Both the position numbers and the translations under genes were made by a program. A stretch of 64,000 nt of DNA from Scytalidium lignicola (lineage: Eukaryota > Ascomycota > Leotiomycetes), in the NCBI GenBank assembly GCA_002812745.2, contig NCSJ02000045.1, forward strand, positions 62,001-126,000, written 5' to 3'. The notes beneath the pieces are model-generated. The model was not told the DNA's origin, did not search any database, and saw nothing but the letters and a program-made list of their open reading frames with translations. Of this stretch, positions 17,198-53,280 are shown one piece after another; the first letter of the stretch is position 1; every line of letters starts with the position of its first letter.

Positions 17198-18636
<1,439 letters not shown>

Positions 18637-19395
18637 GATTGATAGTGAAGTATGGAGAAGTGGAGAAATGTGTGTCTGTGGGGGTGAGATTCAAACGTTG
18701 TCAAAACTCAAAACTTAAAACTTTCTTGCTATATGCTTTCATGCCAAAATTGATGCAACATTAGAAAAGTTGACCGGACCGCTTGCGGACCGCCTAGAGA
18801 TCGTCTGTTTTTTATCGGCCCGGACAATTTCTTCTTCGGTTTCCGGGACAAGCTGTCCGGAGTTCACAGTTCACGACGAACAACATGGAACCCACGACCT
18901 TCGGAGCGCTATCTTGCCGTCTGATGCATGGCCAGACCCTATTCCACTAATTCGCCGCCTTAACCTGGCCAACCGGATCAGTTTGGGGAGGAGGCTGACG
19001 GTCTACCCCTCTTCCCAGTACAGGAGACGACGGCCAGGATTTCTAGCGGCTAATTTTGTTCAGTGATTGAAAATTTTGTATTGTGGCCGCTGTAATCTAC
19101 TATTTTAGTACCTCGGACAATAAGACTATGGCCACGAGTGTCTCGCACGTGATAGAGAACAGGGAACAATTCTAGTATATAGAATCGACTCTTTAAATAA
19201 ATCATGTAATCTCTCTCAATGCTAGCTAGATAATTTTAAAAAATTATAATGATTACGATGAATAACTATGGTATTTGAGTGATATAACTACTTGTTAATT
19301 CTTATTTCCTTAGCAATTTAAAATAAGTAAAATTAACAGTTACGTGACTATTTGGGTTGTTGTATAAATAATGAGCTAACTTAGTTGTAAATAAA
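18637..19395. other. Promoter of the isopropylmalate dehydrogenase gene and intergenic DNA
   Basis: The first few hundred bases upstream of the minus-strand ATG carry GC-rich CCGG and CCGGA motifs (18774, 18852-18865). CCGG-NN-CCGG is the known target of the leucine regulator Leu3; here only single half sites are evident. The rest shows no gene. Confidence 0.35.
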
Positions 19396-19764
19396 TTAAA
19401 CTAATTTATAGAAATACAGTAAGAAGACCAACATTTTATTTTTATTCCAGTCAAGAGATGAGAACCCTTCAGAGTGAATCAAATTAAGTATAAGTTTTGA
19501 TTTAATTTTGCTGGTTCTACCTAAGAGTCCGATCTCTAGAAAAAGAGCTTCTCCTTCATTAGCTAAATTAGATAAGACTAAATTTAGCCTTTTGTTACCT
19601 GTGCTCAACATCCAACGTGACATTATTTTCTTAAGTATGCAATTTCTGATTGTTTTATAGGTACCAAAGAGAGGTCTATATGCGAATCCCATCATGAGTC
19701 CCTCCTTGAGATCAATAAGTCTCTTAGACATGGATGCGACGTGAGGTGGCGGGCCGATATTCAC
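19396..19764 (-). CDS. Hypothetical protein, 122 residues
   Basis: An uninterrupted frame starting MNIGPPPHVASMSKRLID with basic and leucine-rich segments. No domain recognised. The 3' half is AT-rich. It may be a gene fragment or chance frame. The reading frame is the only evidence. Confidence 0.2.
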   Translation of the reverse strand: MNIGPPPHVASMSKRLIDLKEGLMMGFAYRPLFGTYKTIRNCILKKIMSRWMLSTGNKRLNLVLSNLANEGEALFLEIGLLGRTSKIKSKLILNLIHSEGFSSLDWNKNKMLVFLLYFYKLV

Positions 19765-19901
19765 CGGATACCGAACTCCTTCATGCTAGTCCGAGAGTAA
19801 AACCACGGAGAGAAAATATTGATCCTGTTCTGTACATATTACGTGGAGTTTCCACCTTCATCGATTTGCTAATATCTTGACACGATTTAAAATCCTTGAA
19901 A

Positions 19902-22029
19902 ATGACAGTGAAGCAGGACACAATTCCTTTAGCGCTCTATCTATGGAGAAGAATTGCTTCTTTGGGAATTGAGCATGTCTTTGGCGTCCCGGGCGATTTC
20001 AACTGTATGTAACCTTCCAGCAATATGTACAGTACATCGTTGTTCTGGCCAAATAAAAGTTTCCACTAACTAGAAAAACGCCGAATTTTAGTGGAAATGA
20101 TTGACCATGTCTACTCTGTCCCTGGGTTGAAATGGTTGGGCACGTGCAATGAGCTCAATGGCGCATACGCTGCTGATGGCTATACTCGCATCAAAGGGAC
20201 GCCAGGTGTGGTTCTAACAACTTACGCTGTTGATGAACTTTCAGCTATGAATGGAGTCGCTGGCGCTTATGCAGAACATGCAGGAATGATACACGTGGTT
20301 GGGATGCCAGCACGACATTGTAAGAAACCGCAACTCCGATTATTGTGTACATCTTGATCTATGTCTGATCCGGGTGCTGATTCGTATACAACAGTCCAAG
20401 AAAAACGGACCTTACTGCACCATACGTTAGAGCCAAATATGGATCAAACAACTACATTTGTGGAGATGAGCAAGCCGATACGTAAAACGTTTGCTATATT
20501 GAACAATGAAGAGACGGCAACCCAGAAAGTTGATAGGGCATTTATCAAATGTGTGCGGAGCAGGTTACCTGTATTCATCTATGTCCCTACAGATGTTGTA
20601 AATATTTTGGTAGATGCTCAATCTCTGAACACTCCGTTAGATACAGTGGTTCGGAACAGCGACAGTGGAGCAGAAACTCTGGTAGTGGAAAAGATTTTGA
20701 AGGCTTTAAAGGATGCTCCGAGACCAGCCATTGTGGCAGACGTGCTTGCCACGAGACATGGCGGCCAAGACTTTACCAGAAGATTTGTTAACGTGACACA
20801 ATTCCAAACGTACGCGACTCAGATGTCGAAAGGCATCATTGACGAAGATAGTCCATATTACAACGGAATATATAGAGGAAAGTATGAAGAGTATCTTAAA
20901 CAAAACTTCATCAGAAACCAATCTGACGGTGGTCTACACAGTATCTTTCCCTGGCATTAAAGATGCAGCGGAAGCTTCCGACCTGATTATCACCATCGGT
21001 CCTCTACTCTCAGATTCAAACACGGGCAGATTCACCAGAAAGATTGTTGCCGACAAGGCAATAGTCTTAGCTCATGATTACTGCCAAGTTTTCAGAGAGA
21101 AGTTTGATGGTTTCCATTTCCTACCGATATTAAAAAGGGTTGTTGAGGAGCTCGAGAATAATTAGGCCCACTACAACCTTCCAAGACCTCACTACTGGAC
21201 GAAAATAAAGGTATGTTGGAGCCGCTTACTCTTACCACAGATTTGGCCCTAACTGGTCTGATACCCTACAATAGACCCCCCTGCTGTCTGAGTCCAAATC
21301 AGGTACGGTCACCCAGGATTATTTATGGCAGCGCATTGGACGCTTCCTCAAGCCCAATGACATTTTATTTGCAGAAGTTGGTACAACCCAATTTGGCATA
21401 ATAGACGCAACATTCCCCGCAAATACTCGATTCAACACCCAGATGTTCTGGTCCTCAATCGGATTCTCCGTCCCTGCGACGCTTGGCGCTTGCATCGCAG
21501 CAAAAGAAATGAGGCTGCCTGGCAGAGTTGTCTTGATCGTGGGCGACGGATCACTCCAAATGACCGTCCAGGAGGTAGGTTCTTTCATTCGCTTTGGCCT
21601 CAAGCCAATCATATTCGTAATCAACAATGATGGGTATTCGATCGAACGCGCGATCCACGGCCCTGGGCAACAATACAACGATATCAGCCCACAATGGGAC
21701 TATCAGAAAATGTTGGAATTCTTCGGCGCCAAAGGTTCGGGCACGGGCACGAGTAATGGTGTTATGAGCCGCAGCTCTTATTGCAGCAGCATTGAAGACG
21801 TTGAACGTATAATAGGGAGCGAGGAATTTGGACGCTGTGAGTGCATAGAGGTACGTGTTTGCTTGGCCATCGGCATCCCTGTTTCCACAGCACCAAAATA
21901 GTTGCAGACTAATCCTGGTGTGTATTGTAGCTGTGCGAGATAAGAATGGATAAATTGGATTATCCGTGGCGATTAAAGGCTTCCCGCAAACTTGCTAGAG
22001 CAGCAATGGCGGCCATGGCGTCGAAATGA
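19902..22029 (+). pseudogene. Pyruvate/indolepyruvate decarboxylase-like ThDP enzyme, disrupted
   Basis: The order is that of fungal 2-keto-acid decarboxylases. N-terminal PYR domain: MTVKQDTIPLALYLWRRI, HVFGVPGDFN, and ELNGAYAADGYTR with the catalytic Glu. Middle domain: SDLIITIGPLLSDSNTG. C-terminal PP domain: VGDGSLQMTVQEVGSFIRFG and INNDGYSIERAIHG, the Mg-ThDP motif GDG...NN. The end is MDKLDYPWRLKAS. Inferred introns: 20005-20091, 20320-20394, 20882-20941, 21211-21292 and 21851-21930. Two faults remain: no splice choice around 20882 keeps the phase (one base off), and an in-frame TAG at 21163-21165 precedes HYNLPRPHYW. The TAG is not a homopolymer problem, so the gene is probably non-functional. 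With both faults ignored it would be about 581 residues, normal for the family. Confidence 0.75.
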
Positions 22030-28669: not shown

Positions 28670-30860
28670 ATGGCTGGGAAAGGGCTCACAAAATCCTTCT
28701 ATCAAACTAGAAGCATTCTCATATACGCATCTTTGTATCTTCTCGGCCTCTACCTCAACCAGACATCACAATCACCCAAGCTTAGAGCCGCTGCCCTTGG
28801 ATTTCTCTTTCCTGGTGCTGGCTTAACGACTGTAGCCACTATTCCCTCCCTTTTAACCTTTATACTATCCTCATGTCTCATCCCTTTAACCCTATTCGCT
28901 TGGTTTGCATGCGGCGGCGTCCTTTTCCCACTTTTCCTATGGACTAGCACAGCGGGTTTGTCGGCAGTCTTGGCTCAAGATACCTTGTTCGAGCCTGCAT
29001 CATACACCTGGGCTGCTTTGTGCGCGTTGGGTGTGTGTTACGTCACTTTTCGCACTTATAGAGCAAGCCAGGCTGCTGATTCCCGGAGAGAAGTGCGCAA
29101 CCAGTGGTTGATTGAAGAAGTCCACGAGAACCAGACCAACGCAGCAGAAGTTGCTGCACCTGGATCTCGCGAACTTGACCTCGAGACCTTGCGTTTTGTA
29201 CAGTGGTTCTTAGAGCTTGGACTTACGGATGAAAATGATTGGTCGTATCATGACATAATTGATCAATTTCAAACCTCTGCTATCAGATATCAGCTATATG
29301 AAACGGTCTATAGTCTTGGGATGTATCAAGCGCACTATGCTCCCGGATTTCATGGAATATTGTCTCAATCTCAACGTAATGTGATCCGCAAGAGCACAAA
29401 GAAAGAGGTCATGAAGTATGTGGCTATTCTTGGATACGTCATTGGCTCAGTCGCTAACCACCGTCGGATAGTTTTTGGAAATGGGAATCAATATTCGGAA
29501 AATTCAATGCTCACGATTGGAATCCAATCAAAAAGGACAACATTGTGAGGTTCAATACACTGCATATTATTTTGGTCTAATATTTTCTCCCAGATGGTTA
29601 CTGGCTACATTTTGCAAGCAATTGGGATATATCAAAATAACACTGGCGATAATTGTTTCGAACAAAAGGATTCTTTAGAGTTTGTCGTGACCGAAGGGTC
29701 CCGTTTCAAGACAAATTTTCAAGGTGTCAACGACGCTGTCTACAATAACATGGTAAAGAACCCTTATACGCTATACCCTTGCGAGCCAAATTGGCACTAC
29801 ACTCCCTGCAAGTAAGTTAAAACTCTCAAATTATAAAATGAAACCAAACTAACTCACTTATAGTCTAGTTGGTATTGGTGGTGTCATCGTGGGCGACAGA
29901 GCTTTGAAGAAAAACAATTGCCAAAAGCTTCTGAATGCTTTCGAAAAGAGCCTCGAAGAAGAATTCAGTTCGCGAGACGGTACTATCCTCCCTATTCGCA
30001 GTGAGCTTACTGGATTTACGGTACGAATCTGATTGCTATTTTGGAGAAGTGTCACTGATATGATCAGATCCCTGGTCTCTGTGGTGTTTTGACAAACGCC
30101 CAAAATAGCTACCTTTGCTCAGCCTCGCTTCCTCATATAGCCCAGTAGGTTGAACAGCTAATACATTGAAACTCCAAGGCGCTAACTGCCTTAGCCGTAA
30201 CTGGGCTTTGGCACGTCGCGAATGTATCCGATATGAAAAGGATGGCAAGGGGAAGCTCATTGGACTTGTTGGTGCTGACAAGATTGTAAGTGTTTTTTTG
30301 TTTAAATAGAGAAACAAGTCTAATGTGGGTTTCAGGATCCCGGCAACTATAAATCCGGTGAAGGATACTCTTATGCCGTTTTTGCTGCCTCTGCTGCCGA
30401 GTTTGGAGACAAGAAGCTTAATCGTGACTTCCTTGACCGAGTTGACAAGGAATTGTATCCTGTTTACACCACGGAAACTGGAGCTCTCCGCAACAAAGGG
30501 TTATCCACTATCGGACAAGCGACTCTCTTGCGTGCTCGTATTGGTGGCTACCAGGACTGGCACAATATGTTAAACGCAGGTCCACCGATCAGTGCTCTTA
30601 GTGGCCCCTTGCTCGTAGATTTGAAGTTCCCTGATGTCTTAGTCGCGAAAGCTTTCAGTCATGATGGAAAGAGCTTGGAGTTGGTGCTTTATAATAGTAA
30701 AACTGCTGGTTACTTCACCCTCGGTCTGGATAGACTGACGCCTGGAGCAACCTACAAAGGTCAATTTGGAAAGGAGTTCCGTGCATCTGCTAAAGGCACA
30801 GCAAGTATTCTTGCTACGGTCGATGGGCGCACGCAGATTAACATTGAGCTTGTAGCTTAG
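28670..30860 (+). CDS. Membrane protein with linalool dehydratase/isomerase (Ldi) domain
   Basis: Seven exons: 28670-29415, 29472-29544, 29594-29811, 29864-30020, 30068-30144, 30195-30285, 30336-30860. All introns are GT-AG of 47-56 bp and the sum is 628 residues. I prefer the ATG at 28670 (MAGKGLTKSFYQTRS); an in-frame Met exists at 28580. Residues 1-135 are hydrophobic, with about four membrane segments (ILIYASLYLLGLYL; LLTFILSSCLIPLTLFAWFA; VLFPLFLW; ALCALGVCYVTF). From about 190 the Ldi domain follows: DWSYHDIIDQFQTSAIRYQL, FWKWESIFGKFN, KKDNIMVTGYILQAIGIYQ, and CEPNWHYTPC with cysteines at 336 and 345. Bacterial LinD, from memory, uses Cys171 and Cys180, the same 9-residue spacing. Bacterial Ldi interconverts linalool, geraniol and myrcene. 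Substrate here is inferred, not shown. Confidence 0.85.
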
Positions 30861-31291
30861 GTGGCCAATCTTTTTGGTTCATCATATTCTGATCAGAGTC
30901 TTCAAATTGAACCCGTTAGGCAAATCGATTTTATATTATTGTCAGATTATCAAATCTGTTAGAGTAGTATGGATCGTTCCGCTAAATTTGCAGAAGGGGA
31001 CCTCTGCCCGCAGGTGTGTGATATTATATACATAAAGTCATCGTATTTTGACTCAAAGATACTTACCAAGGTATTCTTTCGAAGCTCTCAAGTACACTAT
31101 AATTCCACAATAATCACTCAATATATCTATTGTTGACATTTATTAATATTGGAAGGCAGTTACTATTGAGTTTGAATTCTATTCAGAAAAAAGTCTAGCA
31201 TGAGAAAGCACTTTCTACCGAGGGAGAACATTTATAACATTGTTGAAGACGTATATTAAAATAATAGGTCATGGAATTTAAGTCTCATATT
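30861..31291. other. Shared 3' region between the Ldi and alcohol dehydrogenase genes
   Basis: Convergent 431-bp spacer holding both 3' ends. No gene or repeat recognised. Confidence 0.5.
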
Positions 31292-32736
31292 TTACCAGAG
31301 CAATATTGGTTTGATTGTTGATCCACTTTTCATATCCTCAAACGCCATTTCGAAATTATCAGCCTATCACAAACCGCATAGTTAATTTTCATAGTACGAA
31401 GTCAATTATAGTTAAAGGTCCACCGCTCATTAGCACTCACCTTATAGAATTTTACAAGCTTTTCGATTTGAAATCGGCCATCATGATACCATTGTATCAT
31501 TTTAGGGATGTACTGAATTCGTATTAGAAGTGAGGTATTGGATTTTATAGATCAAAATTAAATATCATACTTTACTTGGTGTAACATCGCCCTCGATATT
31601 CCCCCGGAATGATTTCCCCGACTTGTATCAGTTAAAAAATAGCATTAATATAATTCCTCTGAACTAACTTACCTGCATAAAAGTAATAAGATTAACAGGT
31701 AGCTCGGCAGTGAGAGGTGCGACTCCGAGCAAGATCATTTGGCCACGTTTACCAGTGAAATCCATACCTTTGCTTATTAGACCCACGTTGCCCGTCGTGT
31801 CGACTGTAATGGAGGACCCGAAGCCATCTGTGAGAGACTTTATAGCTGCTACAAGATCAAATCCGGTGCTAGATGTATTCAAAACATGTGTCGCACCGAA
31901 CTCCTTCGCGAGACCTAGACGTGATTCAAATTGGTCAACACCAATGATGGTAAGGGCACCTTTTATCTTAGCTGCCTAATATATCTGCGTCAGCAGTGTT
32001 TGGTGTAAAGGGAAGGGGACTTCTGTGACTTGCAGCAATGGCAGCAAGCCCGACACCCCCCAGCCCAATAATCACCACAGTGTCGGCTTTTCCCGCTCCA
32101 GCAAAATGGTCAACGGTGCCCATACCTGTCTGAAAGCCACAGCCCAGTGGAGCAAAGAGTTTCAATTCATATTCATTCTTTATTACAGTATTCACATTGA
32201 CAACAGAAGTCTGCTTGACAATGGTAAAATTCGAGAAGCTTGATTGGCCAAAGAATGATCCTGAGGGCGCTGGTCCCTTTTTACTCTGGAAGATATCTAC
32301 CTCCCCAACATAATTCAGCTCGTTGAACTGTTGACAGTATGCGGGATGTTCTGTCTTGCAATTTCTGCACTTAGAACAGAACGAGAATGACAGTAGAACT
32401 GCATCGCCTACTTTCGCAACATTTACTGAGTCGCCTGCTTCTCGCACATATCCGGCTCCTGTACAAGATTAGACAAATGCAAAGAAACTTTTAAGAGTTT
32501 CTAGTAAGATACCACGAACCTTCATGTCCAAGTATTCTGGGAAATGTGGGTGAATAGGCAGGCTCTTTTGCGAATACCAAATCTGTGTGGCAAACACCAG
32601 AGGCAATGATATGGACAATCAACTCATCGGGCTGTAACTGTGGACGCAGGGTCAAATCCTGCATCTCAAATCTGTGTTGCCCATTTCGTGGTTCATGTGT
32701 CACAATTGCGCGACTGGCGAAGATCTTATTGCTCAT
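31292..32736 (-). CDS. Zinc alcohol dehydrogenase, aryl-alcohol/geraniol dehydrogenase type
   Basis: Six exons (introns 32459-32519, 31972-32029, 31622-31672, 31513-31570, 31364-31440) sum to 379 residues. Start MSNKIFASRAIVTHEP. Catalytic zinc ligands: SGVCHTDLVF and GHEGAG. Structural zinc cluster: CSKCRNCKTEHPAYC. Nucleotide site: VVIIGLGGVGLAAI, then TIIGVDQFESRLGLAKEFGA, whose Asp suggests NAD(H) preference. C-terminus: MIQWYHDGRFQIEKLVKFYK and FEDMKSGSTIKPILLW. This is the benzyl/aryl-alcohol dehydrogenase branch of the medium-chain family, which includes bacterial geraniol dehydrogenase GeoA. It ends tail to tail with the Ldi gene 432 bp away. I infer oxidation of geraniol to geranial, but aryl or other allylic alcohols are equally possible. 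Confidence 0.88.
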
Positions 32737-32974
32737 TGAGGCTTTTCAGAGATGGTTGGCTCGTGATAGTGAAAAAATTAAGGGGTACTAGCAGTATGAG
32801 CACAGCAGTCCTTCTGGCCGTTTATTATTCATCCTGCCTAACCCTGCTCTAATGAGCTGACACTGTTGACTATTAATCCACATGTAGAAGGCGTCGTATA
32901 TGACATGATAATTGGTAGTCATGCATCTACTAGCTGTGGCCCAAGAATGACATCTGAGCGGGGTATTGTACGTA

Positions 32975-33206
32975 AGGGGGTGTCAGAAAAAGCTCGACAT
33001 CCCCTTGTAGGTCAATAACCTAATCAAATGTGTTATTTAGCGTAGCCTTCCCGCTGTTTTAGTAATTTCAAGCGAGTGCACTATTTTCTACTGCTCACAC
33101 TATACAAAGATTCTACAAATTTACCAGAATAGCAAGAGAAAATCTCTTGATTCAGCTTAAAAGCTCTTGCTTGCAAAAAGATATCAAGCCTTTTCTGACA
33201 CCCCCT
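32975..33206. mobile_element. 232-bp MITE, copy 1 (TA target)
   Basis: Inverted ends AGGGGGTGTCAGAAAAAGCT and AGCCTTTTCTGACACCCCCT flanked by TA. The interior (CAAATGTGTTATT, CAGAATAGCAAGAGAAAATCT) matches copies 2 and 3 at 53022 and 53281. No coding sequence. It lies upstream of the alcohol dehydrogenase gene. Confidence 0.85.
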
Positions 33207-33212
33207 TACATA

Positions 33213-34368
33213 CGGAAGGGGGNTACGAGAAATGAATAGTCTACCCTTGTTTTTGCCACCGATTTTGCCATTCAAATAAAAAAAGTTTTACAACGCTGTT
33301 TTATTATACTAATTATAGTAATTACCAGCTTAAAGAGCTTCTTTTTCTTTATGACCTTCTAAATCTTTTTAAGCATAGTAGTTAATATAAAATATAATCA
33401 ATATTTCATTCTCTTATATATTTATTATAACTTCCTTTAAATCTTCTAAGTTTTACTTATTATATAATTTCTTATTTTATAATAATTGTTTGAGAATTCT
33501 TCATATATTCTCAATTAAATTTAAATCTAATAAGAATAATTAATTAATTAAATTGATATAGTATTTTAATTATACTAAATTGTATAACTTTTTTATTTTT
33601 TTNAAGTATTTAGCTTATTATATACTTTACTGTTATCTTTTACATAAAAGAACTTTTCTAGTATTATAAATAACTTTTCTACTAATTGTACTTTTACTTT
33701 AAATATCTTTTTTNAATAACTGTTAAAGAATTTACTTTACATACTTCTTTTAAGTAAATTTTTTTNCTTCTTCATATAAGACAAAATAAAGTTTAAATTT
33801 AAAGTTATATTTAATTGTTGTTTATATTATAATAAATTTATAATTAAAATAAAATATAAATTATATATAATCAAATTTTCTTTGTTTTTTATATTTATAT
33901 AAAAAGTATTATCTTTTAAGTATATTTGTTTGTATAATTGTTTTATTATAATATATACTTTTTTNCTAATAAGAAGTAAACTAATTAATATAATTAAAAA
34001 ANGTTTTTTACTTAAAATAACTAATAAATTACTTAATTATCTTGTTAACAGTTATATCTAAAACTTTACAAAGTCTTTTAGTTGATTTATGAACATAATC
34101 TAATTACTTTTTAATTATAAATCAAAAATCTTTAATTTGTAAGTTATATCATGTTAAGAATAACTTTGTTCAATATATGACTTAAATTATACAGGTTTTA
34201 AAGTATTCTAAGCTATTGTTAAAGAAATAAAAGAGTGAGAATGAAGGGGTAGTTTTGTACTGTAAAAGGGGGTAAACAAATAGTACTTGATTGTATGGTA
34301 AAAGTGGCATGTTGCTAGAGCTCACCGCCTAGCAAAGGTAGACCATTCATTTCTCATACCCCCTTCTG
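33213..34368. mobile_element. 1156-bp AT-rich inverted-repeat element, TA target
   Basis: Ends CGGAAGGGGGNTACGAGAAA (left) and the inverse of CAGAAGGGGGTATGAGAAAT (right), each followed inward by TGAATRGTCTACC. TA flanks both (33211-33212 and 34369-34370). The interior is very AT-rich with several Ns and no surviving open frame, so it is either a RIP-destroyed transposon or a large non-autonomous one. It starts 6 bp from the end of MITE copy 1. Confidence 0.8.
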
Positions 34369-34370
34369 TA

Positions 34371-34865
34371 CAGCGTTACATTTTCCTCTTTATGAAGTTA
34401 GCTCTTTGACTCGTAAATTTGAGATTCTTCGGTATGGCCTTGGTGTGAGATTAATTTAATCATGGCCCGAGGGGAGGAACGAGAAAACGACTACGCCACC
34501 GTACAGTACGAATAGAAACACTTTTAGGCAGCGATCTGGCAATAATTACTTAATCATTTAAGCAAAGTCTCTCTTTTAATACTAGTTTTAACTCAACATT
34601 TTTAAATTAATTATTTTTTAACTACATAACATCTTATTCTACTTAGGAAAATCTTCCTCGCCTTTTAAAATTCATTGCATTATCCCATTTCAAAGATTGT
34701 TATAGGACGGAAGAGATTTAATTTTTAGTCTTCAAGCTAATATAACTGAGTATACCTGAGTGAGATCCGCACATATCAATTTTGTCTCGGATGAAAAAAA
34801 NTGTCATGCTTTTGAGGAAGTCGCATTCGGAGTAAGGAAACCTACTTCCATTTGCAAATCTACAA
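34371..34865. other. Intergenic, 3' side of the AtuA-like gene
   Basis: AT-rich spacer with one N near 34801. No gene seen. Confidence 0.45.
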
Positions 34866-37057
34866 CTACAATAAAATACTCTCTGGTACATCCACCCATT
34901 TGTCCCTAATATAGTCCGCAAAAGCTTTCCCCAAATTATCCAACCTGGAAGAACTGCTAACTCCCCTGCCCAAGATGCCATAGATGACAAAATGCACGGC
35001 ACGAATTTTAGGAAACTCCACTCTTTCAAGGAAATACCCATCCTTCCAGTCATCACCTATAAGTTGCATCATCATTTCACGACTGAGGTAATTCTGAAGC
35101 CACGGCCACATAATATCTTTTCGGACAAAAATACCACAGTTGAGATTCGCACCCTTGTCTCCTGATCTTGCTAGTGCGATATCTCCCAGTCGTATCCGCT
35201 TCGTCGGACCGAAACTAGTGAGAGGTATGAGATTTGAAGTATTACTGTTTGCTCGCCTCTCCAACGGTGCGTAGGCAGGAGGATTGCCAACCGCAATTGA
35301 CTGGATTATACCATTTTCTTCAATCAGGTTTATCTTTTCTTCTAGTTTATCTTGCGGATATAGCGCTGGGTAGTAAGCTAAGAATTGTCTGGGGCTCGCT
35401 GTTCGTATATCAAGAGCGAAGTGGAAGCCTCGGGAGAATGTGTTAGCTAATTGGTCTATTAAATAGTTTTATGATTGAGTAATACCAGAGAAATGTTGCA
35501 AGGAAATGTTTGAGAATGCTTTTAGTAAGAACGTTAGGGTGTCAGGGTCAGCGGCTTCACTAATAATCCGACAATACGTGGTACTCCGAAGCTGGCTCGA
35601 GGGGTTGGTTTCAGGTACTCCCACACTTTGCTTGTCAGCAATATTCTCATTACAAAGTTGGCGCACTTTACATTTGAAACTCTAGGAGATCAAAGTCGTT
35701 CTCGACTCCAATTAATTGCAGCTGTCGGCGGACTTGCTTTTCGAATAAAATCCATTTCTTGTTAGTTCCATACCCTGTCGCGTTGACTATTATCTGGGAT
35801 TGGTATCCGCCATGATAAAATATTGCTGCTTTGGTCGTCGGTGGAGGAGGAGCTCCAGTCACTCCAGACACTTTAACACTATTTTGTTCCCATTAGACAC
35901 GTCTTTCAGTTCGGACTCTAGTATTACCGATTTTTAGATATTTCTAATATTGAAATATGATCGAGGCAGGCTGTAACATCACTGTTCAAATACATATTGC
36001 CTTGAATCTCATATAGCAGCTGGCATGTGACGGTATCCGTTGTAATCATTCCCCCTGTATTCTCATGTTTGGTTATAATGCAAGAGCCATCTGCATCAAT
36101 CTCTGTAATTGGGAATCCCGGATCCAAAAATGCTTCCAGGTCATGTTCCGTGAAGCCAGAGAAATTACCACCCGTCACGTAAGCTGAACATTCGATCAGG
36201 TGCCCGGCGATCAGAGCTCCGGCAAGTGAATCATAATTGATAGATGACCATGAATGCCAATACCATGCTGCTCCAATTACAGGAGAGGCATCAGCTACAC
36301 GACCACAAATGATGATATTTGTGCCTTGGCGGAGACCTTCAACAATGGCGCGGGCTCCAAGATAGGCGTTAGCTAGGACAATTGGTATGGATTTCTGCTC
36401 TAAAAAAGAGAATGTATTGGCCTGTAGATGAATATTTGGATTGGCAGAATCCAGGTGCTTGGGCATATTTTCATGCATAGAAGCTAAGTCAGGTCCAAAG
36501 TGGGTCATCAAATCGTCGCCAGAAACATAGCCAATCTTTAGCTGAAGTCCACGTTTCTTTGCCTGTCATTGTAGTCAGTGATATATCTTCAACAGTTTGA
36601 TAATCACCAGATGTTTGGGATGAGACTCACCAAGTCGTGTATCTTTTTTGCTAAACCTGCAGGGTTGAGGCTACCACCGTTAATAACAACCTTAGTACCC
36701 TTTCGAGCAAGGATTTCTAGTGACTGAGATATGCCCTCAAAAGCTGTAGCTTCAAATCCTTCGTGCTGACCAGCGCTATATGCTTCAGCGCTCTCCGCCA
36801 TATTCATTTCTGTAGTGACATTAATTTAACCGTCAATTTTTGCACCCTGTAGATATTTTGTACTTAACTAACCTGCAAGATAGTCACCTGTAATAAAATC
36901 AACATCCCCCAGGGAGGCTTGCTCATACATCCGCCAAGCTGGATCATCTTGAGAGTTGGTCAGCATCTATAACCATAACTAGAGGAGATCAGAAAGACAA
37001 ACTTTTGTAGCCTGAGCAGTTCGCAATTCTCACGGGTCTCCTAGGGCTACTTGCCAT
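34866..37057 (-). CDS. AtuA-family protein (DUF1446, acyclic terpene utilization)
   Basis: Seven exons: 37057-37003, 36947-36873, 36809-36631, 36562-35928, 35878-35672, 35625-35486, 35428-34866. They sum exactly to 617 residues. The start is MASSPRRPVRIANCSG. Family landmarks in order: VRIANCSG, VDFITGDYLAEMNMAESA, VVINGGSLNPAGLAKKI, LKIGYVSGDDL, IIICGRVADASPVIGAAWYW, AGHLIECSAYVTGGNFSGF, ITKHENTGGMITTDTVTCQL, VSGVTGAPPPPTTK. The C-terminal AtuA-like domain begins near residue 500, with IRLGDIALARSGDKGANLNC and MWPWLQNYLSREMM. Bacterial AtuA is encoded with citronellol/geraniol degradation genes, but its biochemical role is unproven. Intron 36948-37002 ends at an AAG and uses a GTTTGT donor; alternatives break the frame. 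It is divergent from the CoA-transferase gene 655 bp away. Confidence 0.9.
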
Positions 37058-37712
37058 GTTTATTTATACTGGAATGTGTATGAGGAGTTGAAATATTGGC
37101 TAAAATATCGTTCTTTTCTAGGAAGTAAGGATCACGGAAAGTACAAAGCGATACCAACTCTGTATTGTGATGCAACACCGGAAATAGAATTGAGTCAATG
37201 AAATTAGATTTTGGTAAGTAAACTGGTCTGCTGTCGGAGATCCTCCTCAGCCAACCTTTTCCCGCACCTCTGCTCCCCACTGTCCTATTTTGCCTTGTCA
37301 CTGACATCCAATCGCTGACAACGTTTATAAAGTGAAGATAATGGGGTCGGTAACGGGAGTGAGTTCCTTTGTTTTAACTAATGGATGACCGGCTCGTGGC
37401 GAGTCAGCGGAGCTGGCTAGTCGGATCTGGCGCACCACTGGGGCTTGTTTACCCCGCTCCAGCCTCAGAAAATGGCATGGGCCTCCATAGTGACTGCATC
37501 CTGTGGTTATAATAGTGGAGTGACATCGAATCCTGACATTATAAGCTTCTCGCTCGGAACAAGGGTTCTTGAACGGTAGTGATGTTTTATTTTTGCTGTA
37601 CGGCTTTTTGAGAATTGTCACCATTTCATCTTTGACACCACTGCTCGTAACTTCTTTGTGGAGAATCTCTCTAAGCTTGTTCCTTTCCACTTTACCTCAA
37701 ATTCAAGTAAAT
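37058..37712. promoter_or_regulatory. Bidirectional promoter between the AtuA-like and CoA-transferase genes
   Basis: A 655-bp divergent intergenic region. It contains three direct CGG triplets at 37390, 37408 and 37422; the last two are separated by 11 bases (AGCTGGCTAGT). CGG triplets are the half sites of fungal Zn2Cys6 regulators. Shared regulation is inferred from the arrangement only. Confidence 0.4.
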
Positions 37713-39710
37713 ATGTATTCCGTACCAGAGCAAGCAAACAACGTCTTCCAAAATGGCATTTTGTCCAATCCTCTGATTTCACGAAATCTTCCAAATGATT
37801 TCCAACGATATGGTAATAGGATCAAATTCGAGGGCACGAATGAACCTAGCATGCCGATCAATTGGCGCTTTGCCGAGAGTATATCTGCCATGAAAGCTCT
37901 GGAGGGGACTATGCTCCTAGCTTTATTGGATATGAAATATAAGGTACAACCAAATGAAATTATTATCAATACGTAAGTAGACTCTCATTGTCCTAAATTG
38001 TCATCTACTTCATCATTAACCAATCGCAAGTGATCATGCTCAGCTTTTTATCATGTCCGCTCTTTGTTGGGAGATCGATGCCGATGGCACCAAGGTTAAC
38101 GCCAGCAACAGTATTCACACCGCGGAAGGTGCAGAGTTGATGTCAAAATGGTTCCCCAGCTATGACTTGTACCGATTGCAGAGTACATTTCACCGCGCAT
38201 CTTGCACAAATATCTACAAAACAAAGGATGGGAGATATTTCCACCTACACGGTAGGAAAGCGATACTGTATATTGAAAAATATAGCCTACTCATGTCAAT
38301 TAGGCAGTATGAATCCAGACCCAAGCTTAGACAGCCTCAAGTTGCCTCATGACATGGATCAACAGAGTATTGAAGAGGCATGGAAACCGTTCATCAACAA
38401 AATGTCACAAATCGAGTCGCATGATATGCAACGACTGGCGTCAGACGAGTACAAACAAGCCGGAACTATCTGTTGGACAACGGAGGAATATAAACAAAGT
38501 GAGCATAGCAAGGCAAATGCCAATATTGGACTATTCGAAATAAGGGAACATCTTAATAGTACCCAAAAGCCCGCCTGGTGGCCCGAATCCCCACAAACAT
38601 CGTCTAAACGTCCTTTGGCTGGATTGAAAGTCGTTGATATCACCAGAGTGATTGCTGCACCTGCTATCTCGAGAGGATTGGCCGAAATGGGCGCAAGTGT
38701 CATGCGAATCACAGCTCCACATCTCCAGGATTATTCCACGCTACATTGTGATCTGAATTGGGGCAAGTGGAACTGCAAATTAGATTTTCGCAAGGATAAG
38801 GATCTGAAAAAGGCAAAAGCTCTGATCCGTGAAGCAGATGTTATTGTTACTGGATACCGTCCAGGGGTACTGGATAAATACCAGCTTGGAGAGGAAGGTA
38901 TCCTCGCTCTATGCGAAGACAGAGACCGCGGTATCATTTATGCTAGAGAAAACTGTTACGGATGGCATGGGCCATGGTCATACCGCAGTGGATGGCAACA
39001 AATCAGTGATGCGGTTAGTTTCTGCACTCGATTCGCTCACGTTAAATTATACTGCTGTGCTAATATTAAGCCATAATAGTGTTGTGGAGTCTCTATGGAG
39101 TTTGGTCGAGCAATGGGCAACGACGAACCTGTCACGCCTATTTTACCAAATTCGGATTATTGGCAAGTTTCAACCTTACATATAGTCCTTACCTTAGCTA
39201 ATGGCAAATATCAGTACTGGAGTAGCAGGGGCGTCAGGGATCCTTCGAGCACTAATGCTGCGTGCAGAAAAAGGAGGGTCTTACAGTGTTGATGTAAGAA
39301 TCCTATGTGTAAATGGTAAATACGATAAGAGTGATTGACTTGCCTCTCAGGTTGCTCTCAACTACTATTCCCAGTGGCTGGTCAATTCATGTGGCACGTA
39401 TCCTCAAGACGTCTGGGATAATGTGTGGGCGAGAAGTGGTTATCCAGTCTTCCGACATTACCACAATATGACTTACTCAATTCCTAAATTTTTCGAAGCC
39501 ATGAGTGGAGCGGGATCCAAAGTCTTATTCCAAGAAGATTTCTTGGAAGTTAGAGATTGCAAAGTCATTGGGGCAAAAATCAAGACTGTTAAGCCTGTAC
39601 TAAGGTTTCCAAACAGTGAGGTAGAATTAAAGTTTAATATTGGGACGAGGACAAATGGGATTGATAAAGCATATTGGCCTGCAGATCTTACAATAGAAAT
39701 AGTAGCATAG
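37713..39710 (+). CDS. CaiB/BaiF family III CoA-transferase
   Basis: Six exons: 37713-37972, 38031-38251, 38304-39013, 39080-39162, 39215-39293, 39351-39710. They sum to 570 residues. Start MYSVPEQANNVF. Motifs: INWRFAESISAMKALEGTML and DHAQLFIMSALCWEID in the first half, YKTKDGRYFHLHGSMN, then the second domain with LAGLKVVDITRVIAAPAISR, GLAEMGASVMRITAP, DLNWGKWNCKLDF, ADVIVTGYRPGVLDKYQLG and DACCGVSMEFGRAMG. The intron at 39163-39214 has a GC donor (GCAAGT) and AG acceptor; with it the family sequence SDYCTGVAGASG is restored. Such enzymes move CoA between carboxylic acids. Divergent from the AtuA-like gene. I infer activation of a terpenoid acid such as geranic acid. Confidence 0.9.
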
Positions 39711-43145: not shown

Positions 43146-45509
43146 TCATCGTTCTATCTCAACAGCACTTATAAGACTATTATACTTTTCTTTTNACTTC
43201 TCAGCATCATCATGATGAAGATTTTCAACATGTCTTATGACCTTACCAGCCTCGGCCTTAACATCTATGCCTTCAAGTCCTTGCATCCGCAGCCCAGCAT
43301 CAAGGACATCAGCCTCCTCAACAAGCACGACTTTATCACCGAATGCCGCTGCAATTTCCTCTAGGGTCTTCTGTTTTGTCTCAGGAAAATATAAATAGGC
43401 GACGATAAAGGAACAGAACGAGCACGCGACGAAAACATAGTAGTAATTCTCGCGGATGTTAGCGAAAGCACTGGGACCGGCCTCTGTGAGACCGACATTC
43501 ACGATAAAATGAGACGCTGCAGCGAGACCCATGATTTTTGATCGCAGGGCCACAGGGAGAACCTCTGCCCCGTATAGCCAGGTTGTGCTATTCAGCATAC
43601 CATCTAGTTTCCGTTAGTCATGAAGAGAGCAAGATAGACTGAAGTAAAGATAATAGTGTGCAAACGTACAATAAATCACAGCGAAGAGGTAAATTCCCAA
43701 CACTGCAAATCCCTTGCCCACTTTGTTGTCGGTGTTCTGGTATTCTCGTTGCATCACTGCGGCATAGATTTCTACGATGACAATACCGCCGAGCCCAGTA
43801 AGGATCATTCTGCCATTACAGTCAGTAATCGGCCGTTTAATAAAGACAGTAAACGTGAAATTCTCGGACTTACGGTCTTCTTCCCCACTATATGTCAATA
43901 GTATTAGTTATGTAATTAGCATTAAATATCGCAAGGGAGAGAAACTCACCCTGTCGAGAATGTATTTTGTAGTGATGCAGTTTGCGACAAAAGCGGTTGT
44001 TCCCCAAACAGACGCTAGAGCCAAGATTGTGTGAGACGTGATGCCAAGGGATTTGAAGAGGATCGCTGTATTTCATTAAGAATTAGCTATCTTCTTTTTA
44101 AGAGAAAGAGAGTAAAAGGATGGAAGTACGAAATTAAGCTTACTTTGATAATACTAACAGCATTCGATATCCCTTCAGTAAGTGAATAAATAAAGGTATT
44201 TAGGGAATCCTCACCTGAATCACATTAACTCCGGTAGCACTAGTCATTGCTTGTACAAAGATTGATCTGTTTCGGGAATTTTCAACATTAACACTAGATA
44301 AAAGGGAGGGAAGAAGAGAGTGAGCTCATATAAACTTACACCAAAGCACGATGTCTAAAAACTCTGAAAATCTCTTTATAGGAAGTAATTTCTCTAGCCT
44401 TCTCGAATTCAATTTGTGCATGCATGAGAGCGAACTCCTGATGGGCTTCATGCGTCTGGATACCACGCCGGATTTTCACGTATTCGTCGCGAGCCTGGTC
44501 AACTTTGCCCTGTCGTATCAATTGACGCGGGGAATTTGGCATGAATGTTGCTAAGCCAAGGAATAGAATAATTCCCCAAGGGATCTGAATTGCAAGAGGG
44601 CCGCGCTGTGGAGTTGGACTGTTTCAGCATATCGATACAAGTGCTCTTTTAAGTTATCATGATTTTAAGAGCAGATATTTGAGGCAAAGAAGATGCAAGA
44701 CCGGGAACAAATGTCGAAGAAAACCAAACAAAAACAAAGATGAGGGAGATCACATACCCATTGTGATGTACCGTAAGGGGCGTATGAGAAAGCAAAACCA
44801 ATCCAGTTGGACATCATGGTACCAAATGATATTCCGCAACCTGAGATACCCCCAATTAAACCTCGATGCTCCGGAGAAGATATCTCGGAGAGATAGATCG
44901 GAACTGTAGCGACAAGGCCACTGTTTGAATGGGTAAGTGATTAGTAAAAAAAAAANCTCCTTTTGTCACAGGCTCATGGAAGATGACGGACCCAACTGCG
45001 TATCCTGCAATACCGCGACCAGCGAGGAACATGCCTATGTTGACGGCTGCGGTTTGGATAGTCACACCAATGGTAACGATGATACACATCATTTGCATGA
45101 ATCGTATGCGACCCAGCCTATCACCTAGAAAAGTCTGCGTTATACCGCCGAATGCCTCTCCGGCGATATATATCGAAACAACCTAGCTATATCAGCAAGA
45201 GATGGTGCGTTCTACCGTCGTTCAAAGAGACATACTGCGCCCGTGAGGCCATTTGAGGGATGGTTCATATATTCAATCCAACTCTGATGTGCGATTGCTT
45301 ATCCAATATTCAGTGTGCTAAGCCCATATATATTTCAAGTTGGAATTAAACTTACTTGTTGTGGCGATGCCAGTATCTAAGCCCTGTTGGTATGTCGTAT
45401 TTTAGTACTGTATTTTATGGAGTATTTGTGCAGTAAGGAGGAGACATACAAAGACGAAAGTCCCGATCGCAGCAAAGAAGCTGAGGCTCAAGGTATACCA
45501 CAGAGACAT
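43146..45509 (-). CDS. MFS sugar-type transporter
   Basis: A multi-exon minus-strand gene starting MSLWYTLSLSFFAAIGTFVF at 45509 and ending at 43146. Twelve-helix sugar-porter landmarks can be followed across small introns: FGLDTGIATT, GEAFGGITQTFLGDRLGRIR (loop 2-3 motif), FLAGRGIAGYAVG, VPIYLSEISSPEHRGLIGGI, PNSPRQLIRQGKVDQARDEY (a PESPR variant), SATGVNVIQ, YILDRVGRR, STTWLYGAEVLPVALRSKIM, and YFPETKQKTLEEIAAAF (PETKG motif). Exon ends were not all fixed; one clear intron lies near 43608-43668 (GTACGT to ACTAG). An N at 43195 sits in the C-terminal tail beside a T-run. Substrate unknown; quinate, lactose or hexose-type porters share these motifs. Confidence 0.82.
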
Positions 45510-46769
45510 CCTGAACAGGCGATGGAAACCGAAAGTTTCTCGAATTATTACAATAATTAGACACTGTATTTATTGTTTATGTCATTTAGGGTATCGATAT
45601 ATTCTTGCTAGTAATTTATCAGTCTAGAATGACTTTATAGTAAGAAGCGAGGGCGAGCGACTAATAATGAAAACCTTGGAGTTTTTTGAAATCTTTCTCG
45701 TCGATAAATCACATCATCATAGGTTGAATCTAAGAGTATATGTGCTTCAAAAATGCTGTAAAATAATGTGAAATGGGAATGGGACTTCTCTGCTTATAGC
45801 GCTCGTAGAATGGGGTTGCTGACCGCATTGTCCGTGTGAGCGGGGTCTCTCCACATTGTTTGCTTCCCCGCTGTAGATGCCAGGAGGTCGTCAGTACATG
45901 GGTACGTGTACTGTTTATACTAATTGGGAAATTTCTCTTATACTGTGATATTTTTCAACAGTTCTTCACATTTACTTTTTCATCTGTTCTAACCTTCAGC
46001 CGGGAGGCAATGCAGATATGGAAATGGAAATTTCCTCTTCTAATTAAACCCTAAGGAATTAGAGCTCCAAAACTACTCCTAAAAGACCGAGAGTAACTAC
46101 TACTTTTTGTTCAAACAATAACTACAATAACCACATCTTCTATGCGGGGAAATTCCTTGGGACTTGGATATTTTCTACCTTGTCGGGTTATCCTGCAGTT
46201 GATCGTCCATGCTCATTCGGTGTCCGGGTAAATGACCAGCGACATGGAATATTGATGCCGAGCTACGAATGTTGGCTAATAGATGAGCAAGTGACCGCAG
46301 CGGGCACGTACATTTAACTGTAGCTTGTCGGTGGTTTTTACATACTAACATTCACCTCACGAGTCGCCCAAACTACTGCCCAGTAAAAGGGTGCCCAGGA
46401 GGAGAAGGCGGCAAAGGCTTCAAATTAAAAAGTTGAACTGACAGAATTTAAACAGTAATTAATTAATTAAAGATTTTATTTATAAAAATGAACCTTTAAT
46501 TTTATAATTAAATAGTATAAAGTTAAGCTTAAATTAATTATTTGATTAAAGTTAAAAGGTTTAGATTTTTTATATGTTAAATTATAATATATAAGCATTT
46601 ACTTTAAGAGTTATAAACTTAATTAATATATATTTTAAAAGTCATTACTATTTTTATTATTAAAAATGTAAACTAAGTCTTTTTAAGATTATAAACTATT
46701 AACCTTTTCTTTTATAATAACAAATACTTTTATTAATATTTTTTAGCTTTATTCTTATTAGTTTTAACT
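45510..46769. other. Intergenic, becoming AT-rich
   Basis: Promoter of the transporter gene, then unique sequence, then an AT-rich run (46430-46770). No gene supported. Confidence 0.5.
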
Positions 46770-47899: not shown

Positions 47900-50320
47900 T
47901 TAATGGAATATTAACGTTTCAACATTTTGAATAGTGTCCCAGGTAATATAAAGCTCGAAAGTAAGAAAACAAGAACCGATAACGATGAAAGATTTTTCTT
48001 TTTCTTTACCCTTTCCTACATTCTCACTCTCAATTGTAAATGGCCGAATGACAAAGTAGCCTTTGGTACCCTCAAGTACACATATGAGATCTCCAGGTTG
48101 ACTGCTCGCCGGCGTAATAGCAAGAGTACTCCCTTTGTAACTCTTGTCACTGCCGTCGCTACTATCCGTTTCCCATTCTCCATCATCTCCACTAGTCTGA
48201 AGCAGGCTCGGTTCGGGCTCAGAGTCACTGCTCAAATCAACTTGCTTGTCAACTATGTCGATAACACAAACATTGCTTCCGCGGCATGTGTCTTGGAACA
48301 TTGCTAAATTTTCAAATGACTTTTTAGAGTCCCATTCGATAGGCCCCTCTTTAAGTTTACCCCAATCGGCGGGTTTGAGGGACCTGAAAAGAAGATATGA
48401 AAGCACAGCCAATGGTGGTACTTTGTTCTTTACGAACCACTTGACAAAGTCCTGAAAGTAAGGATCAAAAAGTAGAGACAGAAATTGAGTCGCCCCCAAC
48501 TTTTGTTGGACGGCAACTCCAGACTTCTCGTTGGGCCACTCAGTAGGCCACTCAGTCGGCCAGTGATGTAGCGGTTCATGAAGACCTGCAGCGGCAGAGA
48601 AAATTTTTAAGAGGCTTCTCAAACAGGGTTCCGTGTCTTGGGGAGAATTGTAGGACAAATAAGAGGAAAGGAGTTTATTATCTAGTTGATAGCGAATTAG
48701 CTCTTCCACTTTATCCTCTTCACTGGAGGTCGATGCTCTCCGTCTAGAGCCACGAGTGTGGAACGAGGCTTTCTTTGCAGCTGGTAATCGACCTCTCAAA
48801 CCGCCTCCGATATTGAAACTGTCGGCTAATTTCTTATCAAAGGATTCAGGAAAGCGAACCTTCTGTCTGGAACCTCGATTGCTGGCTGGCTTTTTCTTTG
48901 AAAACGCAAGCTTACGGATCGCTTCTGTCTTTATATTTCTCATTTGCAACCTATAGGTTGCCCATTCCTTTTTGATACCACATCCATTCAGGTTGCGTAG
49001 TGATGCGGTACTTCTCCCTACCTCAAGTACACGTCCAATAATCATTCCCTGGCAAACCAGAATATTTTTTGATTGTCCCTGGTATCTAATGTTATGATGT
49101 GAGTAGAAGAAGCTCCGGTCGCTATCTGAATGGATGGGAGAGGGCACTGGGCCATCATCCTTAGTCCAGTCTGGGACCCAAGAGGGTATACCTCTCAAGA
49201 CTTGGTCAACTGGGTCAACAGCTCCAACATAACTAATTATCCTCAAATCATTATATCTTTGAATGAAGTAACGAGCGATATCGGTGAATACTTGAGACGT
49301 TGTCTTTGAGTAGTCCACTATTGGGTCAGGCCACTCAGGCGAGTTGAAGTCAGCAGCAACTCCGAAATGGGCGTACACAAAATCTCTTGCGTCTGAGGCA
49401 CCGAAACCCCTTCTTGCTTGCAACAAGTTGATAAGATCAAGGCTACTAGTTGTAGCCTTCCGATCCTGGAAGACATTACGAGCGGACTCCATATATTCCA
49501 GAGATGCTATGCGCCTCATTGTCAGAGCTTGGCCAGCTTTACCTGATTCCTTTATTGAGGATGGTTCTTTTGAGGTACCAAAAGCCGACAACCATTTGAA
49601 TGATGAAATAGACTTCAGTGATGTCACCAACATGGATGTGAGTATCAACAGGTTCTGCCATCGCACACGTTTCCTGTCGAACTGTATCCAGGGGTCTCGT
49701 GATCGCACGAGTTCCTGAAGAACCCAAATCCGAGTAAACCATGGACGGGACAAGACATGAATCTCGATTGCAGAGAGGCAAAGAGCCTTCTCTGAGGATG
49801 TCGTCTTCTTAATTCTATTCAACTCATAAATCCTTGGATTTCGATACAGTTGCTGCATCTCATCTAGCAAGATGCTCGTTTCAACATTCAAGCTACCTAG
49901 GTAGATGACTGTGTGATGAGCTGTAGAATATACCCTTCCCATTTGTCCAACCTGCACATTCTTCTCATCATCATCGAGCTGATTAATGCAAAGAGCATCG
50001 GCCCATACACGTATGGGACGCTTTTCGTCTCTTATATGGCGAAGTGCGGCTTCCAGATTCGCTGTAACATCAACTATGTGTCCGTCGACTATAATATTTC
50101 GTGTGTCGTTTTGATCCCCCCACACATATGAGAGCGCAATGAAATGGTCTATGATTTCATTATCATAATAATCCAGGGTCGCATGCTCTAGTATGCACTC
50201 AATTTGCCCTGTTCCGTCATTGTTTGGTTGTACAACAACTATCCGGATGGCTTTAGATTCCACGAGTGGCCGGTAAAGCTGGAGCCTGTTATCAACGAGA
50301 GGCGACGGTGGGAGTGACAT
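47900..50320 (-). CDS. HET (heterokaryon incompatibility) domain protein
   Basis: A single uninterrupted frame of 806 residues. The HET domain occupies roughly residues 60-220, with all three conserved blocks: FIALSYVWGD, IRVWADALCINQLDDDEK, and SRPWFTRIWVLQELVRSRDP. The central part has GFGASDARDFVYAHFGVA and IPSWVPDWTKDDG, typical of large fungal HET proteins. A basic stretch near 500-550 and an acidic Ser-rich stretch near 735-760 (DLSSDSEPEPSLLQTSGDD) follow. A small repeat WPTEWPTEWPNE occurs near residue 620. HET proteins trigger cell death on fusion with a different strain or act in immunity. The partner is unknown. The last residues (FELYITWDTIQNVET) may be read-through of an unspliced intron. 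Confidence 0.9.
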   Translation of the reverse strand: MSLPPSPLVDNRLQLYRPLVESKAIRIVVVQPNNDGTGQIECILEHATLDYYDNEIIDHFIALSYVWGDQNDTRNIIVDGHIVDVTANLEAALRHIRDEKRPIRVWADALCINQLDDDEKNVQVGQMGRVYSTAHHTVIYLGSLNVETSILLDEMQQLYRNPRIYELNRIKKTTSSEKALCLSAIEIHVLSRPWFTRIWVLQELVRSRDPWIQFDRKRVRWQNLLILTSMLVTSLKSISSFKWLSAFGTSKEPSSIKESGKAGQALTMRRIASLEYMESARNVFQDRKATTSSLDLINLLQARRGFGASDARDFVYAHFGVAADFNSPEWPDPIVDYSKTTSQVFTDIARYFIQRYNDLRIISYVGAVDPVDQVLRGIPSWVPDWTKDDGPVPSPIHSDSDRSFFYSHHNIRYQGQSKNILVCQGMIIGRVLEVGRSTASLRNLNGCGIKKEWATYRLQMRNIKTEAIRKLAFSKKKPASNRGSRQKVRFPESFDKKLADSFNIGGGLRGRLPAAKKASFHTRGSRRRASTSSEEDKVEELIRYQLDNKLLSSYLSYNSPQDTEPCLRSLLKIFSAAAGLHEPLHHWPTEWPTEWPNEKSGVAVQQKLGATQFLSLLFDPYFQDFVKWFVKNKVPPLAVLSYLLFRSLKPADWGKLKEGPIEWDSKKSFENLAMFQDTCRGSNVCVIDIVDKQVDLSSDSEPEPSLLQTSGDDGEWETDSSDGSDKSYKGSTLAITPASSQPGDLICVLEGTKGYFVIRPFTIESENVGKGKEKEKSFIVIGSCFLTFELYITWDTIQNVETLIFH

Positions 50321-50429
50321 GTTTCCAGTAGTACTGTTTTGAGATCCTTATGATTCACTTCGAAATTGTCCAAGGAAGAGAGGATAGTTACGAACTCTGA
50401 AAGTAGTCATGCAGAAGGAGACAGCTGGT

Positions 50430-50528
50430 GTTTGCGCATGCTGGACTGTATGTAATACTAGGTTATATACCAGCCTTACCCCACTTCGGTAGACCATCAA
50501 GCCGTCAACTCCATTTTACATTGTAACA
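50430..50528 (+). repeat. Short LTR-like repeat, copy C (about 99 bp)
   Basis: TGTTTGCGCATGC at the start and TTTTACATTGTAACA at the end; the segment GCCGTCAACTCCATTTTACA matches the complete short LTR at 13088-13205. It has a TATA-like TTATATACC. No target duplication seen. It lies about 110 bp upstream of the HET gene's start codon, in the opposite orientation. Confidence 0.6.
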
Positions 50529-52936: not shown

Positions 52937-53021
52937 GCTTTCCATCTTCGCAAACTACTAGTTTTACGACAATACAAACTGTAAAAAATATTTTTAACTA
53001 CAGAATATGACTCTGTACGTA

Positions 53022-53252: not shown

Positions 53253-53280
53253 TATACTTACGTAGTACGTAAGGTACGTA

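Follow-up and report, generated by a model that had tools for sequence, protein, structure and literature searches.

We describe a locus of the leotiomycete Scytalidium lignicola (assembly of 46.85 Mb) at which genes for an AtuA-family protein and a family III (CaiB/BaiF) CoA-transferase, which are a conserved pair of Pezizomycotina, lie beside genes for a linalool dehydratase/isomerase (Ldi)-domain protein and a zinc alcohol dehydrogenase (ADH). The window analyzed is a 64,000-nucleotide stretch (contig NCSJ02000045.1, positions 62,001 to 126,000 of the forward strand), and spliced models place the four genes, all intact and intron-bearing, within its positions 28,670–39,710. Gene integrity, families, conserved catalytic residues and the conservation of the AtuA/CoA-transferase pair are established. 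In our best reading, to which we give a probability of about 0.45, the conserved pair would carry out CoA transfer and C–C cleavage, and Ldi and ADH beside it would feed in a tertiary allylic terpenoid alcohol. The genes, with the spacer between the last two, are as follows:

28670..30860, + strand: Ldi-domain (PF18566) protein, linalool-isomerase-like, 628 residues, 7 exons (28670-29415, 29472-29544, 29594-29811, 29864-30020, 30068-30144, 30195-30285, 30336-30860); splice model and Pfam
31292..32736, − strand: zinc alcohol dehydrogenase, benzyl-alcohol-dehydrogenase type, 379 residues, 6 exons (32520-32736, 32030-32458, 31673-31971, 31571-31621, 31441-31512, 31292-31363); splice model and PDB match
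34866..37057, − strand: AtuA (PF07287 and PF23544), 617 residues, 7 exons (37003-37057, 36873-36947, 36631-36809, 35928-36562, 35672-35878, 35486-35625, 34866-35428); splice model and Pfam
37058..37712, no strand: spacer of 655 bp between the divergent AtuA and CoA-transferase genes; gene-model coordinates
37713..39710, + strand: family III (CaiB/BaiF) CoA-transferase, 570 residues, 6 exons (37713-37972, 38031-38251, 38304-39013, 39080-39162, 39215-39293, 39351-39710); splice model and PF02515

A preliminary description of this DNA had reported complete, in-frame proteins of 628, 379, 617 and 570 residues, and all four splice models give exactly these lengths. Its family assignments are each backed by Pfam: PF18566 in the Ldi protein (E 3.7e-82, residues 206-511), PF08240 and PF00107 in ADH, PF07287 (E 1.5e-159) and the ferredoxin-like domain PF23544 (E 1.8e-17) in AtuA, and PF02515 (E 1.5e-32) in the CoA-transferase. 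The AtuA protein from the splice model matches B7463_g3417 of S. lignicola at 100% identity, and the stops that a six-frame search shows inside AtuA lie within introns of that model. A GC donor occurs in one intron of the CoA-transferase gene. Ldi and ADH are convergent, 431 bp from end to end, and AtuA and the CoA-transferase are transcribed divergently.

A conserved AtuA/CoA-transferase pair

We judged co-location in fungi from the locus tags and printed contig sizes in three protein searches (Ldi, AtuA and CoA-transferase), taking the best 120 matches of each, beyond which further paralogues may lie. The contig size printed is that of the longest member of a 90% cluster, and a shared contig does not amount to adjacency where contigs reach megabases. 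Species whose rows came from differing strains or tag prefixes were excluded (Exophiala viscosa for Ldi, Aureobasidium melanogenum, Boeremia exigua, Lithohypha guttulata, Parastagonospora nodorum and Cladophialophora carrionii). Among the matches listed, AtuA and CoA-transferase share a contig in 11 of 12 comparable Pezizomycotina assemblies, the exception being Paraphoma chrysanthemicola, and their tags are consecutive in all five species with two pairable printed tags: Thyridium curvatum, Coniosporium apollinis, Rhinocladiella mackenziei, Exophiala mesophila and Cladophialophora chaetospira. R. mackenziei has two extra CoA-transferase rows with tags not neighboring AtuA. Of 8000 candidates scored against AtuA itself, 4281 are related at E ≤ 0.001, and every named entry among the 120 listed is fungal.

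The S. lignicola genome holds four clear AtuA loci and one weak match. Among the best candidates scored, a CoA-transferase match lies within a few kb of two of the four, in the window and on contig C37; the AtuA contig C109 has none, and on C11 there is only one, ~100 kb away. The second pair (G000:C37:53001-73000), with its two genes ~3 kb apart, is distant from that of the window (AtuA 38%, CoA-transferase 52% identical). Its neighbors are a P450, a thioesterase, two AMP-binding ligases, a thiolase and an alpha/beta hydrolase, and because the P450, thioesterase, ligases and thiolase adjoin the pair, we read the setting as acyl-CoA catabolism.

Family III CoA-transferases work through a catalytic aspartate, and the racemases related to them through a catalytic histidine. 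In the S. lignicola protein, the aspartate is Asp423, conserved in all 56 aligned sequences, and where the histidine of the racemases would align stands Trp391, a tryptophan in all 56; the protein is therefore read as a transferase and not a racemase. Alpha-methylacyl-CoA racemase, the name carried by several relatives, is ruled out by Trp391. The PF02515 match spans only profile positions 1-196 of 366. The N-terminal 255 residues (37713-38553) are without a Pfam match, and their comparison with the missing half of PF02515, as in a circular permutation, gave a very weak match (hhalign probability 3%).

For bacterial context, we took the best 80 of 363 confirmed AtuA relatives with up to 8 kb of DNA on each side. 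Nearby matches were to a methylcrotonyl-CoA carboxylase (MCC)-beta-like carboxyltransferase at 46 of the 80 loci, to a CoA-transferase at 10 and to an ADH at one. Open reading frames were called at six loci, and Pfam was run on ten frames from two of these six, L054 and L052. In L054, from Rhodococcus opacus, the CoA-transferase gene is followed by FAS1_DH/MaoC, MaoC, AtuA and acyl-CoA dehydrogenase, and an IclR regulator lies close by; in L052 the order is CoA-transferase, FAS1_DH, acyl-CoA dehydrogenase, AtuA and IclR, adjoined by ABC transporter genes. A CoA-transferase match lies ~2 kb upstream of AtuA in R. opacus L054, Mycobacterium L047 and Micromonospora L057, whose AtuA proteins are among the closest bacterial relatives (35-38% identity, among the best 80). 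These three loci differ from that of S. lignicola in having no Ldi or ADH match, and the R. opacus operon differs further in including MaoC-type and acyl-CoA dehydrogenase genes.

The closest described analogue of the pair is found in the naphthalene thn operon, where, according to the accessible text of a review, ThnP has been shown to transfer CoA intramolecularly in a dicarboxylic acid, and the AtuA-like ThnQ/ThnS are assigned tertiary beta-hydroxy acyl-CoA cleavage on unpublished grounds, an assignment that is not settled (PMC12016498). The same text indicates that CoA-transferase and AtuA-like lyases occur together there and that a tertiary hydroxyl block is the target (PMC12016498). The thn operon differs in being bacterial and anaerobic, with an aromatic substrate and two AtuA-like genes, and the likeness is one of description, not of sequence. 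By analogy, the fungal CoA-transferase would attach CoA to a branched or dicarboxylic acid, or shift it from one position of such an acid to another, and AtuA would cut the C–C bond beside the tertiary hydroxyl carbon of a 3-hydroxy-3-alkylglutaryl-CoA-type substrate, a cleavage that would remove the branch blocking beta-oxidation.

The Ldi protein and the alcohol dehydrogenase

Mean hydropathy of the Ldi protein is +0.73 over residues 1-139 and −0.36 over the remainder, and a simple hydropathy window scan of the N-terminus resolves two segments, not four. The linalool isomerase Lis of Thauera has, as given in the accessible part of its description, 644 residues, four predicted N-terminal helices and a cytosolic Ldi-like domain, with hydropathies of 0.94 and −0.406 (PMC4791888). 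Going by that published description rather than by a comparison of sequences, the two proteins share a two-domain layout of similar length (644 versus 628 residues), with a hydrophobic N-terminus followed by an Ldi-like domain. The S. lignicola protein is thus similar to the membrane-anchored Thauera enzyme, with linalool isomerization as a predicted function. Among the matches listed, its closest relative is that of Coleophoma cylindrospora (78%), and proteins named linalool dehydratase/isomerase are annotated across many fungal genomes.

Castellaniella defragrans Ldi (PDB 5hlr, 5g1u) shares the Ldi domain and a cysteine pair. Presumably it is without a membrane anchor. It differs from the fungal protein in having an export signal sequence, as the portion of the source available to us states (PMC6013536). 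Its active-site residues, as far as the accessible text of the source lists them, include C170/C179, H128, D38 and Y44 (PMC12455561). In the PDB alignment, Cys170/Cys179 align with Cys336/Cys345 of the S. lignicola protein, and both cysteines are invariant in all 16 sequences of one alignment, which includes the S. lignicola protein, and in all 34 of a second, which excludes it; the PDB alignment stops short of D38 and Y44. The match to the Castellaniella enzyme is weak for the single sequence (E 7e-4) and reaches E 1.5e-25 with the family profile. The earlier identification as an Ldi-domain protein holds up in its hydrophobic N-terminal part, its Ldi domain and both active-site cysteines.

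In a tree of 37 Ldi rows, with a midpoint root for drawing only, fungal and actinobacterial membrane-type proteins join, and outside them is a group made up of a long-branched bacterial Ldi of 524 residues and an S. lignicola paralogue from contig C112 (row 27% filled). The C112 gene (G000:C112:67175-68391) represents an Ldi gene of another kind, which falls with the 524-residue bacterial Ldi and not with the membrane type. Relatives of Ldi occur in an additional bacterial order (L146-L149, 27-32% identity over >550 residues), and the viral contigs searched held no relative of Ldi or AtuA.

For ADH, the best PDB match is benzyl alcohol dehydrogenase (1f8f, E 7.3e-75), in agreement with the aryl/geraniol type proposed in the preliminary description, and the next are the unassigned zinc ADH 5tnx (E 1.1e-72) and 1hdy (E 4.2e-43). 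We take GeoA to be of the benzyl-alcohol-dehydrogenase type as well, so that the likeness of the S. lignicola ADH to GeoA is one of type and not of compared sequence. The nearest paralogue in the genome (59% in the best stretch) is on C32, a contig that carries none of the other Ldi or AtuA loci.

Linkage of Ldi and ADH to the pair

The nearest bacterial precedent for the whole locus is the atu region of Thauera linaloolentis 47Lol, a 24-kb region that holds lis, geoA, geoB and atuA, as the accessible part of the paper reports (PMC4847356). There geoA and atuA lie in the lis region much as ADH and AtuA lie beside Ldi here (PMC4847356). On the same description, the Thauera region differs in holding the carboxylase/hydratase genes atuCFE, geoB and a CoA synthetase, and S. 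lignicola has a family III CoA-transferase instead. Most likely, Ldi and ADH feed the AtuA/CoA-transferase pair in S. lignicola: Ldi would isomerize a tertiary allylic terpenoid alcohol to a primary allylic alcohol, and the GeoA-like, benzyl-alcohol-type ADH would oxidize this towards an acid. Linalool or geraniol may be the substrate; a linalool link is plausible, mostly not common to the other fungi compared, and unproven.

Several observations weigh against this reading. The reactions proposed for the four enzymes derive from bacterial relatives, so that the mechanism would be one transferred from bacteria. The position of the active-site H128, in a further difference from Castellaniella Ldi, is Tyr278 in S. 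lignicola; the corresponding column of the 16-sequence alignment contains Tyr 12 times, Trp three times, Phe once and His never (counted by eye), and because His is found in none of the 16, H128 is not conserved across the wider Ldi family. Furthermore, Ldi and AtuA share a contig in only one of eight fungal assemblies, and Ldi and CoA-transferase in none of 15 (both among the matches listed); Coleophoma cylindrospora, with the closest Ldi, is among the assemblies without a shared contig. The co-localization of Ldi with AtuA and CoA-transferase that had been predicted for other fungi is thus not a conserved one, and of the clustered fungal counterpart to the bacterial pathway put forward earlier, the AtuA/CoA-transferase pair stands and the Ldi linkage is mostly absent.

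Bacteria weigh in the same direction. That Ldi travels with AtuA was not borne out: of 15 bacterial genomes that gave a match to Ldi, eight contain AtuA, in no case on the same contig, and no Ldi match was found at any of the 80 bacterial AtuA loci with their flanks of up to 8 kb. Because several of the bacterial genomes are fragmented drafts, a near AtuA neighbor could be missed at a contig end. Among 396 actinobacterial genomes, Ldi matches occur in six, AtuA matches in 74 and both in three, a weak association (one-sided Fisher p 0.08). With the linkage absent from the bacteria compared, the Thauera region is a precedent and not a rule.

These observations bear on a competing explanation, which we regard as a real possibility: that the four genes are chance neighbors, the pair being a general fungal acyl-CoA module, Ldi and ADH being unconnected with it and the fungal Ldi having another substrate. 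The scarce linkage of Ldi elsewhere speaks for it, as does the setting of the other Ldi genes in S. lignicola, which has three Ldi loci (the window, C112 and C124): no AtuA, CoA-transferase or ADH match was found in the 10 kb around each of the C112 and C124 paralogues. In addition, none of the 50 ADH match places in the genome is on a contig of another Ldi or AtuA locus, and two repeat elements part ADH from AtuA:

32968..33213, no strand: inverted-repeat element lying between ADH and AtuA; its 34-nt arms are 88% complementary
33219..34363, no strand: AT-rich element with inverted arms of 31 nt and a RIP-like dinucleotide composition

Positions 33216-34365 have a GC content of 0.194 and a composite index of +0.56 (RIP-like), and the junction motif of the two elements is found at 10 genomic places including its own, allowing ≤3 mismatches, with 0 for the reversed control. 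We infer that both are mobile elements. By arithmetic, the ADH–AtuA gap without them would be ~738 bp, which gives three short gaps of ~431, 738 and 655 bp and argues against chance neighbors. Also against chance is the expected number of Ldi–AtuA neighbors this close, ~0.003 per genome, a post hoc figure that assumes uniform placement and ignores uneven gene density; the corresponding figure with the CoA-transferase, 0.015, used 17 loci, and a recount to 16 contigs changes it only a little. Moreover, the Thauera region as published has, to the extent of the text available, the same three kinds of gene, for an isomerase-like protein, an ADH and AtuA (PMC4847356), and a second co-localization is seen in Exophiala spinifera, the one fungal exception, where Ldi (PV08_11701) and AtuA (PV08_11714) are 13 tags apart on a single 477-kb contig.

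Pathway, surroundings and meaning

We looked for the remaining steps of the bacterial route in the S. lignicola genome, which has three carboxyltransferase loci. C510 is MCC-beta (E 9e-157 to MCC, 5e-104 to geranyl-CoA carboxylase); C11 (G000:C11:248224-249716), of which one exon was searched, is propionyl-type; and C651, a piece within a 1551-codon open frame, is presumed to be an acetyl-CoA carboxylase. No dedicated geranyl-CoA carboxylase was found among these three loci, C510 and C11 being closer to other carboxylases by PDB comparison, and the 64-kb window holds no carboxylase match; this too counts against a terpenoid-feeding role, although an MCC of broad specificity could perform the step. 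The complete bacterial-type route suggested in the preliminary description, from linalool through geraniol, geranial and geranate to geranyl-CoA (formed by the CoA-transferase) and on through the Atu route to complete degradation, is improbable. Its enzyme kinds are, in the available part of the account, the same as those of Thauera linaloolentis on linalool (PMC4847356), and the genome has the methylcrotonyl-CoA carboxylase. An aldehyde dehydrogenase gene (3-1234), truncated by the left window edge and ~27 kb away, could meet the aldehyde step. Against this route are, besides the carboxylase result and the scarcity of conserved Ldi linkage, the fact that the known bacterial Atu route activates the acid by the synthetase AtuH and not by a CoA-transferase, as far as the accessible text describes it (PMC4847356).

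A variant in which a membrane-anchored linalool isomerase and the CoA-transferase/AtuA pair make up a fungal catabolic cluster for linalool or a related tertiary allylic alcohol, with MCC or a carboxylase-free removal of the branch replacing a dedicated geranyl-CoA carboxylase, appears doubtful to us; if true, AtuA and the CoA-transferase would be the means by which Pezizomycotina in general deal with acids that a tertiary carbon blocks. It is highly improbable that the locus is not catabolic but a terpenoid-modifying or detoxifying set, in which Ldi and ADH interconvert monoterpene alcohols of a toxic kind and the AtuA/CoA-transferase pair serves routine branched-chain acid turnover. For such a set speak the multiple Ldi copies of some fungi (three for Aspergillus californicus among the 120 matches listed, and three in S. 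lignicola) and a review that, in its accessible text, gives monoterpene transformation in rich medium, rather than growth, as the usual report for fungi (PMC4097962).

Elsewhere in the window, an AT-rich, RIP-like block (~22-28.2 kb, GC 0.249, composite index +0.40) lies left of the Ldi gene, and right of the CoA-transferase are one gene of no assigned family and then a sugar-transporter-type gene (43149-45569). An isopropylmalate-dehydrogenase-type gene on the − strand adjoins a TPP-dependent enzyme gene on the + strand, decarboxylase-like by eye (17370-21900). At 47900-57019, two genes with HET domains, an array of TPRs and a gene with an amidoligase domain suggest a fungal NLR/heterokaryon-incompatibility region.

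In the open-licence literature searched, no fungal Ldi enzyme or fungal AtuA/CoA-transferase cluster is described, and no test of a fungal linalool dehydratase/isomerase turned up. A paper on nerol in the yeast Meyerozyma guilliermondii, in the part accessible, combines genome and metabolite data into a pathway that has a geraniol isomerase among its steps, and refers to Lis (PMC7789178). The S. lignicola locus offers a genetic setting for a direct test of fungal linalool isomerization. The lasting finding is that AtuA and the CoA-transferase form a conserved pair, one with a testable lyase mechanism. The widespread fungal DUF1446/AtuA proteins have no function assigned in the records and literature covered, and the conserved CoA-transferase partner, together with the ThnP/ThnQ/ThnS analogue, makes a specific reaction testable for fungal AtuA.

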